Origin: Acidilobaceae archaeon | GTDB taxonomy: Archaea > Thermoproteota > Thermoprotei_A > Sulfolobales > Acidilobaceae | Assembly (NCBI GenBank): GCA_027080775.1 | Contig: JALWPV010000011.1 | Span: 1 to 64,000 of the forward strand | Direction of reading: 5' to 3' | Length of the DNA stretch: 64,000 bases | Part shown: positions 7,693 to 10,421 of the stretch, piece after piece | Numbering within the stretch: position 1 is the stretch's first letter | How the letters are laid out: every line of letters starts with the position of its first letter | Notes under the pieces: model-generated | The model's database searches: none | What the model was told of the DNA's origin: nothing | Seen by the model: only the letters and a program-made list of their open reading frames with translations | Made by a program: the position numbers and the translations under genes

Positions 7693-7854
7693 CTACTATC
7701 CCGAGTAATCCGTGGAATATAGTCCCTTGTATACTTTTTTATTCTATGCAGTAATTAAGTCTAAGGGGAAGTAAGTTTGCTCAACTGAAGCTATAATTCA
7801 TTTTGATAAGCTTTTTGGAATAGCAGGAAAACTTTAATGCAACAGCTATTTGAT

Positions 7855-7892
7855 GGGCCCGCGGGGATTTGAACCCCCGGACCTCCGCCGTG
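7855..7892 (-). repeat. tRNA-Val 3'-half copy 1 (distal att-like site)
   Basis: Minus-strand reading runs CACGGCGGAGG, then a T arm with TTCAAAT, then CGGGCCC, matching the intact tRNA-Val from the 3' anticodon stem to the acceptor end, with one extra G in the T-stem region. It is immediately abutted by GGCCCACCACC (7892-7902), an inverted copy of the tRNA 3' end plus CCA. It marks the far boundary of the island. Confidence 0.75.
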
Positions 7893-7938
7893 GCCCACCA
7901 CCTATGGGAACTTTCCATGTGCCTCAAAACATTATCTG

Positions 7939-7953
7939 AGCTTTAAATAAAGG
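7939..7953 (+). promoter_or_regulatory. TATA-like box for the VapB-like gene
   Basis: GCTTTAAATAAAGG lies about 45 bases before the GTG at 7994. This would place transcription start near 7972 with a short leader. Confidence 0.35.
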
Positions 7954-7993
7954 AAAAGGATATGAGGAGGCGTCCCTACCATAAGCTTGGGAT

Positions 7994-8197
7994 GTGGGAT
8001 TGTCGGAGACCATTAGGGTGAAGAAGAGTATATATGATATCTTGGTTAGAATTGCAAGGGAGCAGGGCATGTCTGCAGAGAAAGTATTGGAAGAGCTGGT
8101 TCTCGAAAAAGCTGGCATTCCTAGAGACATGTTTGGCATTGATAGAGACAGGGTTAAGCCGTATACAGAGAAGGATAGGATGGAGGATAGGGGATAA
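7994..8197 (+). CDS. VapB-like antitoxin
   Basis: 67 residues. The N-terminal LSETIRVKKSIYDILVRIA then MSAEKVLEELVLEKAG has the shape of a small ribbon-helix-helix or SpoVT-like antitoxin of VapBC systems, and the charged tail would bind the toxin. It stands directly before a PIN-domain coding stretch whose start (8203) follows the antitoxin stop by five bases, as in vapBC operons. GTG 7994 or TTG 8000 could be the start. The partner toxin is frameshifted, so this gene may be an orphan. Confidence 0.65.
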   Translation: MGLSETIRVKKSIYDILVRIAREQGMSAEKVLEELVLEKAGIPRDMFGIDRDRVKPYTEKDRMEDRG

Positions 8198-8202
8198 GCG
8201 AT

Positions 8203-8582
8203 TTGCCTGTATATGATACATATGCGTGGATTGAGTATTTTAGAGGTAGTGAGAAGGGTGCTGTCGTGAAGCGGCTTCTGGAGTCGCAGAAAGGGTATAC
8301 TCCATCGATAGTCCTAGCTGAAGTAGCAATGATGATGATATTCTAAAGAGATTACTGTTTATTGTTGGCAAGACGGAAGTAGTAACAATCGATATAGAGA
8401 TATCGCTGAAAGCCTCCGAAATATATCTGGAATTATTAGAGCTATCTAAAAAGCTGAGATTAAGAACACCTAGCCTAGCTGATGCAATAGTATATTCTAT
8501 TGCAATGCTAAAGCAGGACAAGCTCGTCACTGGAGATAAGTTATTCAGAAATATGGAAAATGTTATTTATATTAGAGATTAA
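8203..8582 (+). pseudogene. Frameshifted VapC-like PIN-domain toxin
   Basis: Frame 1 from TTG 8203 gives LPVYDTYAWIEYFRGSEKG and later YTPSIVLAEVA, the PIN N-terminus with its first acidic residue, then stops at TAA 8344-8346. A +1/-1 shift near the GATGATGATGATA run (8329-8343) opens a second frame: LKRLLFIVGKTE, then LRTPSLADAIVYSIA and LVTGDKLF, which is the PIN C-terminus with its conserved aspartates. Together the two halves make a normal-length VapC ribonuclease. The lesion could be genuine decay, a sequencing error in the trinucleotide run, or recoding. Confidence 0.7.
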
Positions 8583-8636
8583 AAATAAATACTACATGTT
8601 CATTATATAAATTAATTGGACTTACGAGAGCCATAC

Positions 8637-8878
8637 ATATCTGATGGTGTTTGATATCGAAATTGATATCCTTGTTGTTATGCATTTTGGATTATATGAG
8701 TATAGCTGATATACACTATTGCATATCTGTGTGTTCTCACCGCGGGGATTTAAACCCCCAGACCTCCGCCATGAGAGAACACACAGATATTAATAATTCC
8801 TCATATGACAGATATGCGTGGAGTCAAAAAAGAATATCAACACAAGGATATCACTGGAGATATCAAACACCATCAGAT
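8637..8878. repeat. 242-bp imperfect inverted repeat centred on a tRNA-Val fragment
   Basis: The left arm (8637-8739) and the reverse complement of the right arm (8773-8878) share identical blocks in the same order: a 22-base block at the outer ends (8637-8658 against 8857-8878), a 12-base TGATATCCTTGT block, and a 16-base ATATCTGTGTGTTCTC block at the inner ends. Between them lies the tRNA-Val fragment at 8741-8773. The right arm is repeated as a diverged direct copy after the third tRNA fragment (9578-9690). No credible gene covers 8583-8950. Confidence 0.8.
8741..8773 (-). repeat. tRNA-Val 3'-half copy 2
   Basis: Begins at CGCGGGGATTT and matches the tRNA T arm and 3' anticodon stem, with TTTAAAT instead of TTCAAAT in the T loop. 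It lacks the GGGCC acceptor end that copies 1 and 3 keep, because an inverted arm joins at 8740. Continuing bases ATGAGAGAACACACA are shared with copy 3 but not with the tRNA. Confidence 0.75.
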
Positions 8879-8904
8879 ATGCATGAGGATTGCTCTATCT
8901 CGGG

Positions 8905-8918
8905 CTAGCTTTAAGAGA
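8905..8918 (+). promoter_or_regulatory. TATA-like box for the DUF433 gene
   Basis: AGCTTTAAGAG lies about 40 bases before the GTG at 8953, leaving a short leader that contains the GGGGAGATG ribosome-binding stretch. Confidence 0.35.
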
Positions 8919-8952
8919 GCTGGGTAGGTCAAATAACTCCTGGGGAGATGGT

Positions 8953-9189
8953 GTGGAGCGGAAGTTTAAATGGATTGAAATAAATCCGAATGTTTGCCAT
9001 GGTAAACCGGTCTTCAAGGGTACAAGAGTCCTGGTGGCTGATGTTCTTGAAATGATTGCGTCTGGTATGAGTATCGAGGAGATTTTAGAGGAGTATCCCC
9101 AGCTAAACAAGGAGATGATTCTTGAGGCAATAGCTCTTGCAGCCGAGCTCCTTAGGAGGGAGAGACGTGTCATACCAATTCCTGCTTGA
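8953..9189 (+). CDS. DUF433 antitoxin
   Basis: 79 residues from GTG 8953, chosen because GGGGAGATG precedes it and because the upstream in-frame residues are unlike the family. IEINPNVCHGKPVFKGTRV then VADVLEMIASGMSIEEILEEY is the DUF433 (PF04255) signature, a small HTH-type antitoxin fold. It overlaps the DUF5615 toxin gene by 23 bases, the standard partner arrangement, so it should neutralise that toxin and repress the pair. Middle cassette of the tRNA-Val island. Confidence 0.85.
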   Translation: MERKFKWIEINPNVCHGKPVFKGTRVLVADVLEMIASGMSIEEILEEYPQLNKEMILEAIALAAELLRRERRVIPIPA

Positions 9190-9511
9190 CGAAAACGTAC
9201 CCAGAACAATTTTTAAGCTACTAAGACAGAAAGGCTTCTACGCTGAATATGTACCTCAAGGTGTTGACGATAGAACAGTTATTGAAATAGCTAGAGAAAA
9301 GAACTTGATATTAATTACAAGAGATAGCGATTTTGCCGACGAGTTGAGGTATCCACCAGACTCTCATCCAGGTATAATTGTGCTCCGCATCCACCCTTCA
9401 CTACCAAGAGTAATGGCTGAGCGCTTAGCATTCGTGCTGGAAAACGTCAAAGAGTTAAGTGGAAGGATTACAATAGTATATAATGATAGAATAGAGATTA
9501 TTGGAAGATAG
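9167..9511 (+). CDS. DUF5615 PIN-like toxin
   Basis: 114 residues from GTG 9167, preceded by GGAGGGAGAGA; a longer in-frame extension lies inside the antitoxin gene and is unlikely. FLLDENVPRTIFKLLRQKG, DDRTVIEIAREKNLILITRD, then SDFADEL carry the acidic residues (DEN, D, TRDSDF) of the DUF5615/Mut7-C-like PIN fold (PF18480), predicted ribonuclease toxins. The gene is intact and coupled to its DUF433 antitoxin, so this cassette is probably functional. Confidence 0.82.
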   Translation: MSYQFLLDENVPRTIFKLLRQKGFYAEYVPQGVDDRTVIEIAREKNLILITRDSDFADELRYPPDSHPGIIVLRIHPSLPRVMAERLAFVLENVKELSGRITIVYNDRIEIIGR

Positions 9512-9537
9512 TAATTTTCTACAATGTTACCGATTAT

Positions 9538-9580
9538 GTGGTGGGCCCGCGGGGATTTAAACCCCCAGACCTCCGCCATG
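9538..9580 (-). repeat. tRNA-Val 3'-half copy 3
   Basis: GTGGTGGGCCCGCGGGGATTT matches the intact tRNA including the encoded CCA, then continues through the T arm (TTTAAAT variant) and anticodon stem. After 9580 it carries the same AGAGAACACACA extension as copy 2. Confidence 0.78.
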
Positions 9581-9690
9581 AGAGAACACACAAGTGTGCA
9601 AGAGTTCACATCCAGAGTATGCATGAAGTCCAAGCTGATAGATGTCATGGATATCCAGGTTGAATATCAACAACCGTGAGATATGCATAG
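9578..9690. repeat. Second copy of the tail repeat beside a tRNA fragment
   Basis: Diverged direct copy of 8771-8886. Shared in order: ATGAGAGAACACACA, a TATGC(A/G)TG(G/A)A block, GGATATC, ATATCAA, and AGATATGCAT near the end. There is no coding frame with family resemblance in it. The following bases 9691-9731 hold nothing I recognise. Confidence 0.65.
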
Positions 9691-9731: not shown

Positions 9732-10079
9732 TTACTTTAAATCAAAAATACTCTTTAATTCCTCCTTGACATTAAGTAGAGCCTTTTCAGTGAGTTTGCC
9801 GACAACCTTTATCACTAATTTCTTCTCTACAGTAAAAATACTTGAACAATCTATATAGCTTGGCTCCTTCTTTAAACGGCCAATGGCTAAGTCCGATTGT
9901 GTTATTGGTACTCTATGCAGGCCAGGAGAGCTGGTTATCTTAGCTACCATTATATCGTTGCCCAAGTCTATGGCATTCAATACCAAGACAGACCTTAGTT
10001 TAGAGCCGAGTAAATCTGTGAAGGGGAGTTCTAGGACAACAATATCTCCTTGCTTATATCTCGAAAAGTTCTTCGGCAT
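9732..10079 (-). CDS. MazF/PemK-like toxin
   Basis: About 115 residues. GDIVVLELPFTDLLGSKLR then SVLVLN is the PemK/MazF opening (PF02452), and DIMVAKITS continues the SH3-like barrel. Family members are sequence-specific mRNA endoribonucleases. ATG 10079 is preferred over GTG 10085 because GGAGG sits six bases before the ATG. It overlaps the upstream antitoxin gene by 26 bases. This cassette points to the minus strand, opposite to the other two in the island. Confidence 0.8.
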   Translation of the reverse strand: MPKNFSRYKQGDIVVLELPFTDLLGSKLRSVLVLNAIDLGNDIMVAKITSSPGLHRVPITQSDLAIGRLKKEPSYIDCSSIFTVEKKLVIKVVGKLTEKALLNVKEELKSIFDLK

Positions 10080-10239
10080 CCTCACCCTCCCTTAAAAGCC
10101 TAAGATATGAATAGAGCTTCTCGGCATCGACACCCTCAACCTCTACTATCTTTATTTTGACCTTCTTGCCCTCAAGCTCTGTTAAGGGCTTAAGCGGAAT
10201 AATTACACCGCCCTTTACAATACCCTCTACCTCAGACAT
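10054..10239 (-). CDS. AF2212-like (DUF104) antitoxin
   Basis: 61 residues from ATG 10239. VEGIVKGGVIIPLKPLTELE followed by GKKVKIKIVE is the AF2212-like antitoxin pattern (small beta protein, family PF01954), and the acidic helical tail (REGEDAEELFEI) would wrap the toxin. It is translated just before and overlapping the MazF-like toxin gene. An in-frame start at 10284 exists, but the family begins close to the chosen ATG. Confidence 0.8.
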   Translation of the reverse strand: MSEVEGIVKGGVIIPLKPLTELEGKKVKIKIVEVEGVDAEKLYSYLRLLREGEDAEELFEI

Positions 10240-10274
10240 CTTCGAAGACCCACATATTACTGCTACTACAGTGA

Positions 10275-10291
10275 GGCTAATCAAGTTAGCC
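10275..10291. promoter_or_regulatory. Perfect hairpin/operator before the AF2212-MazF pair
   Basis: GGCTAA-TCAAG-TTAGCC: a perfect 6-base inverted repeat with a 5-base spacer, in the leader 36 bases before the antitoxin start and just downstream of an A/T-rich promoter stretch (10309-10326, minus strand). This fits an operator for toxin-antitoxin autorepression or a leader hairpin. Confidence 0.45.
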
Positions 10292-10343: not shown

Positions 10344-10421
10344 TGGTGGGCCCGCGGGGATTTGAACCCCGGACCTCCGCCGTGTGAGGGCGGCGTCCTA
10401 ACCAGGCTAGACGACGGGCCC
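10344..10421 (-). tRNA. tRNA-Val (anticodon CAC)
   Basis: A complete 75-base cloverleaf on the minus strand from 10421 to 10347, with CCA encoded to 10344. Acceptor GGGCCCG pairs with CGGGCCC; the D arm is GTCT/GGAC; the anticodon stem CCGCC/GGCGG encloses loop CTCACAC, giving CAC for codon GUG; the T arm is CGGGG-TTCAAAT-CCCCG. No intron. Its 3' half is duplicated three times in the island downstream, so it is the integration target. Confidence 0.95.

Follow-up and report, generated by a model that had tools for sequence, protein, structure and literature searches.

A long imperfect palindrome centered on a tRNA fragment very probably arose where one toxin-antitoxin (TA) cassette inverted precisely within a tRNA-anchored row of such cassettes. 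The tRNA fragment plus its adjoining tail would act as the attachment site (att) in this array, and a pNOB8-type integrase would move the cassettes. The palindrome itself is a scar, and the main interest lies in the cassettes. The window, the whole stretch of DNA that was analyzed, is 64,000 nucleotides long and comes from an archaeal genome (1.78 Mb, 85 contigs); related public contigs are labeled as Acidilobaceae or Desulfurococcales MAGs.

Global alignment of the two palindrome arms (8632-8739 and 8775-8886) gives 86 identical bases among the 104 aligned, which confirms that the structure is real. A repeat search detects the inverted arms as 8632-8675/8842-8885 (44 nt, 89%) and 8723-8738/8775-8790 (16 nt, 100%). 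The sequence-only reading had described a 242-bp palindrome with identical blocks of 22, 12 and 16 bases around a tRNA loop. The inverted repeat is present and its blocks are found again, as 16, 12 and 23 bases, but its span is 254 bp, the length over which the region matches its own reverse complement (E = 4e-20). As had been proposed, a tRNA fragment forms the loop, here 35 bp of the tRNA-Val 3' half (about 8740-8774). Arm columns outside the exact blocks are identical in 35 of 53 cases (66%). A comparison with shuffled sequence had been named as the check that could overturn the palindrome, and the arms pass it because their whole-arm alignment score of 70 far exceeds the scores of 500 dinucleotide shuffles (mean -38, sd 9.7, maximum -11). 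The suggested folding check showed that the region folds far better than its shuffles, with a z-score of -10.1 as DNA and of -12.3 and -11.2 for RNA from the two strands. A scan of Rfam finds no family that matches the palindrome, with only tRNA reaching the cut-off, and a bacterial promoter/terminator scan is at or below chance.

Each palindrome arm is the conserved tail (~105 bp) of a repeat of ~150 bp that begins with the tRNA-Val 3' half. Three tRNA-Val 3'-half fragments lie 3' of the intact tRNA-Val(CAC) gene (about 7854, 8740 and 9541) and split the region into three ~800-bp units containing vapBC, DUF433/DUF5615, and PemK/AF2212-like genes (Table 1). In the att repeat of cassette 2, the fragment (8740-8774) is followed by a tail (8775-8886) that is the right arm of the palindrome. 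The fragment with its ~105-bp tail is also found at the third fragment of the window and in relatives. Orthologues of the vapC pseudogene have open frames in loci L016 and L017, and the L016 copy matches PF01850 (E = 1.8e-14).

Table 1. Features of the cassette array in the window, with one larger repeat-bounded element from genome G016 (last line)
Feature	Position	Strand	Basis
tRNA-Val 3'-half fragment copy 1, left boundary of cassette 1	7854..7892	+	sequence; R1 match 7849-7942, agreement in fragment part only
Cassette 1 (vapBC), inverted, 847 bp	7893..8739	-	breakpoints 7892/7893 and 8739/8740; junctions read
vapB-like antitoxin, cassette 1	8000..8197	+	open frame; orthologue of L016_9620_9826
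vapC (PIN) toxin, cassette 1, pseudogene	8194..8583	+	frame change
Palindrome left arm = tail of cassette 1, reversed	8632..8739	-	R1 match 8632-8766, minus strand, 74.9 bits
att repeat of cassette 2	8732..8885	+	R1 98.6 bits, E=9e-29
DUF433 antitoxin, cassette 2	8890..9189	+	PF04255 E=7e-24
DUF5615 (PIN-like) toxin, cassette 2	9137..9511	+	PF18480 E=2e-18
att repeat of cassette 3 (fragment + tail)	9537..9688	+	R1 103.8 bits
PemK/MazF-like toxin, cassette 3	9732..10085	-	PF02452 E=3e-11
AF2212-like antitoxin, cassette 3	10054..10284	-	PF01954 E=5e-5
Intact tRNA-Val (CAC), array anchor (attB/attR)	10344..10421	-	ARAGORN; Rfam RF00005
G016 defence-like element	L113 7048 to L016 7397 (G016:C5:267047-281396)		bounded by tRNA-Val-type repeat

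Comparison with related genomes shows that the repeat belongs to a family and that the array is one of many. R1, a sequence-only model built from 20 repeat copies, detects the repeat in 43 of the 229 genomes of the class (E<1e-12), and about 80 tail-bearing repeats were collected from ~45 related archaeal genomes. The repeats usually form rows toward the tRNA-Val gene, with up to five per row (L086) and a tight spacing (median 801 bp). Recognized TA genes are present in 60 of the 68 gene-bearing cassettes, and the cargo consists of PemK with AF2212-like, DUF433 with DUF5615, ParE-like, VapBC, and PIN/PIN_2 genes. The usual cassette starts with the tRNA-Val 3' half, followed by the ~105-bp tail and the TA genes, all cassettes run in one direction, and the array ends at the intact tRNA-Val. 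The tail contains repeated GATATGCAT/GATATC motifs. A gene-free att repeat 150 bp from tRNA-Val (L120 4520-4722) resembles a cassette emptied of its genes, or else the product of a deletion. A different, dispersed repeat of ~310 bp near the cassette array of the putative Aeropyrum pernix genome (G015:C1:326733-327043) recurs at about ten other places with 95-98% identity.

Seven genomes hold a relative of cassette 1 (72-88% identity), in every case oriented opposite to the copy in the window. It aligns in reverse orientation to L016 9922-9052 (87.8%) and L017 10470-9606 (84.3%). Roughly 33 matches to cassettes 2 and 3 all have the same orientation as the window, and tail-bearing copies are co-oriented within each array with the sole exception of window 8632-8766. 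The comparison with all seven relatives therefore indicates that cassette 1 flipped in the lineage of the window. The inversion set the cassette 1 tail against the next fragment and tail, which created the palindrome, and it is the reason that fragment copy 1 has no tail. These results bear out one of the two earlier proposals for the palindrome, the scar of an inversion between two att sites. The palindrome is not conserved in relatives, the reversed tail being present in the window only. The recombining unit is probably the ordinary repeat of tRNA fragment plus tail rather than its palindromic version.

The inversion, known from one contig of one metagenome assembly, is base-precise with one ambiguous base when its junctions are compared with genome G016. 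At the junctions, CCGCCGTG is joined to GCCCACC and TTCTCA is joined to CCGCGGGG. One breakpoint falls within the anticodon of one fragment, between GTG and TGAG, and the other within the acceptor stem of the following fragment, between GGGC and CCG. Along the direction of the exchange, CCGC(C/G) precedes both. Strand exchange by IntSSV1 takes place in the anticodon loop (PMC8371274), and a misdirected integrase reaction may therefore have produced the inversion. Microhomology repair is another possible origin. The acceptor stem is no normal crossover site for these enzymes, and the second breakpoint counts against the best explanation.

Genome comparisons show that cassettes come and go, replace one another, and pass between families. 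The congener G002 is 97% identical to the window in the flank right of the tRNA and 94% identical left of the array, and it has a single PemK cassette (87% identical) compared to three cassettes in the window, with cassettes 1 and 2 missing. Window cassette 3 is closer to its counterpart in another genus (G060, 92%) than to the copy in this congener. Cassettes 2 and 3 are found together in G014 at 89-92% identity, with hutU at 83%, beside tRNA-Val(GAC) and not CAC. The cassette order is DUF433-PemK-vapBC in G016 versus vapBC-DUF433-PemK in the window. DUF433 is 91-96% identical between the order-level families f1 and f9 (three genomes), with eIF5A at 67-73%, and a fourth f9 genome (G078) has a lower DUF433 value of 72%. 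By these comparisons, directly repeated sites bound units that are exchanged individually. The trees built from the PemK, DUF5615, and ParE proteins are too short to give firm counts of transfers.

The same comparisons show that the tail is common to the cassettes and to an integrase-bearing element. In L028 (genome G017), a 6.5-kb element comes after a tail and carries a GmrSD-like gene, an AAA ATPase, and a tyrosine recombinase (467 aa; PF00589, E = 3e-10) that adjoins tRNA-Val(CAC). This tail and that of a ParE cassette from the same genome (L029) match at every base over 116 bp. The L028 contig begins within its tail, so the left boundary of the integrase element depends on a single contig edge. 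Near-identical integrases are located at the same place in G063 (97%) and G006 (89%), and integrase relatives adjoin tRNA-Val(TAC), Gly, Thr, His, Asn, Arg, and Phe genes. The L028 integrase matches the pNOB8 plasmid integrase (NC_006493) at 34.8% over 89% of the query (E = 1e-54). It retains R..K..YxxR..Y, and GLR, YELR, and HYL are present in both L028 and L200; the R...YXXR...Y signature characterizes pNOB8-type integrases (PMC8371274). The L028 integrase gene is intact and directly adjoins tRNA-Val, as expected for the pNOB8 type. In the G016 array, a BrxL/DUF1156-methyltransferase defence-like element of about 14 kb precedes three small TA cassettes, all with the same tRNA-Val-type repeat.

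A search of the window's own genome found no tRNA-Val(CAC)-type integrase, only a distant homologue beside tRNA-His (C68, L209 4795-6033), so the window array may be inactive there. An intact SSV-type integrase is encoded elsewhere in this genome (C28, L148 10851-11822), and its N-terminus reads through tRNA-like sequence. SSV-type integrases (PF16795) were considered as the movers and rejected; they occur in 20 of the 48 family genomes, and the examined loci are all without a tail. Public phage, plasmid, and viral contigs gave no real match to the tail, with three short exact IMG/VR matches that score poorly. The Val-type integrase was absent from viral and phage records, and its matches in plasmids were limited to Sulfolobales conjugative-type relatives. 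A sequence search against solved structures returned no match.

Eight genomes carry another type of tail at tRNA-Gly(CCC), and here too it accompanies TA cassettes, TumE among them. A ~17-kb element at tRNA-Gly in G130 (L233, G130:C8) is bounded by the Gly-type tail and an integrase that is 49% identical to the Val-type enzyme; it also has a primase/helicase-like gene. Integrase, tail, and tRNA thus switch as a set, which would follow if the tail were the arm site of the integrase. L234 (G104:C199) is a row of four Gly-type repeats in which one PIN_2 plus antitoxin cassette resembles the Val cassette of L023, pointing to cargo that crosses between att families. A third repeat type at tRNA-Gly (L033 5565-10476) has cassettes of 2.3-2.6 kb with two TA pairs each.

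The proposed mechanism starts from three observations, the same tail, the same tRNA, and an integrase nearby, from which we infer all further steps. A circular cassette with one fragment-plus-tail site would recombine with the tRNA-Val gene or with another repeat, using an integrase supplied by a larger element that has the same tail. The tail would be the arm-binding site of this enzyme. Each insertion would restore the tRNA and leave a fragment at the outer end, and repeated insertion would build the cassette array. TA cargo may make the loss of a cassette costly. The TA cassettes would thus be non-autonomous units mobilized in trans by the integrases of larger elements, and the flip of cassette 1 may be a by-product of the same enzyme.

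The other proposal of the sequence-only reading was that the palindrome itself is the functional element, an active folded recombination site or RNA (an attC-like hairpin or cruciform) maintained by selection on its structure. The predicted fold is strong (z of about -10 to -12), which favors this idea, as does the action of integron tyrosine recombinases on folded single strands. However, a flipped cassette yields such a structure trivially, there is no Rfam match, and the other tail-bearing repeats have no inverted arm. Single canonical repeats also have no conserved fold, with z-scores of -0.4 to -5.1 and a covariation term of -0.03 kcal/mol across 20 repeats. A folded site is scarcely credible on this evidence. 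Joining of cassette 1 in the wrong orientation during assembly is very improbable. The sequence is a MAG contig and the flanking repeats are similar, but the flanking fragments are direct rather than inverted repeats of about 35 bp, and a simple mis-join between them would delete the cassette and not flip it. The junctions are also precise to the base, and the arms have diverged (74% alike).

Two further explanations concern the origin and movement of the cassettes. The array could be the decayed remnants of ordinary viruses or plasmids integrated at tRNA-Val, with the TA genes merely survivors. Integration at tRNA genes is common and remnants are often degenerate (PMC3718332), some cassettes are degraded (cassette 1 among them), and the att is common to larger elements. 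This origin is nonetheless quite unlikely, because cassette length varies little from about 800 bp, with room for no more than the two genes present, and because the compact units recur at 80-92% DNA identity, non-coding sequence included, in several genera and families. Such recurrence indicates that the cassettes travel as compact units. It is also unlikely that the cassettes move and flip solely by homologous or microhomology-mediated recombination. The repeats are 70-75% alike with almost identical tRNA parts, and the breakpoints have just CCGC(C/G) and one ambiguous base in common, all of which speaks for such recombination. Yet it leaves unexplained why capture occurs at a tRNA gene and gives fragments with precise ends, the tail identity between cassette and integrase element, and the parallel tRNA-Gly set.

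The cassette system works like an integron, yet it is not one. Integrons, including those of archaea (PMC9668308), also have directly repeated sites, one per small cassette, in an array anchored at one site, with shuffled order and content and common TA cargo. The anchor here is instead a tRNA gene, and in place of a folded attC the site consists of a tRNA 3' half and a conserved tail. No intI gene with the IntI-specific domain lies next to the window array, which has only TA and host genes around it, and the linked recombinases are pNOB8-type relatives. Nearly all cassettes here are TA pairs, compared to 10.5% of function-assigned proteins in archaeal integrons (PMC9668308). The pNOB8-type (type II) plasmids and elements of Sulfolobales have the same integrase family beside a tRNA 3' end, use the tRNA 3' half as target, and keep the integrase gene intact (PMC8371274). 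These elements are tens of kb long with their own integrase, unlike the ~800-bp two-gene cassettes without one. SSV1-type integration (PMC8371274) has its exchange site in the anticodon, where one inversion breakpoint lies, but the integrase here is not split on integration, and SSV integrases were not found beside these tails.

CIMEs are bacterial cis-mobilizable elements that are bounded by att sites, have no recombination genes, and accumulate beside elements with the same att. The cassettes similarly lack a recombinase, have the att of an integrase element (the L028/L029 pair and the Gly pair in G130), and accrete beside elements with that att. They differ from CIMEs in being very small, regular, TA-filled, and widely spread as individual units.

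We consider it an even bet that hyperthermophilic archaea possess an integron-like but separately evolved platform, with capture at tRNA-Val and tRNA-Gly, fragment-tail sites, pNOB8-type integrases acting in trans, a nearly pure cargo of addictive TA pairs, and reshuffling of order, content, and orientation. Such a platform would explain how TA modules travel between archaeal genomes pair by pair. It would also be a second, tRNA-based way for prokaryotes to build exchangeable cassette arrays, with a named and testable recombinase, sites, and cargo. No earlier description of a tRNA-anchored TA cassette system was found in the literature searched, which had most subscription journals outside its scope and does not prove novelty.

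Two complete genomes have arrays at the same locus, with common flanks (86-94%) and a shared distal vapBC cassette, and their tRNA-proximal cassettes differ. We take these genomes to be those of the cultured Aeropyrum pernix and A. camini, and their different cassettes at one locus would make the system testable in cultured organisms.
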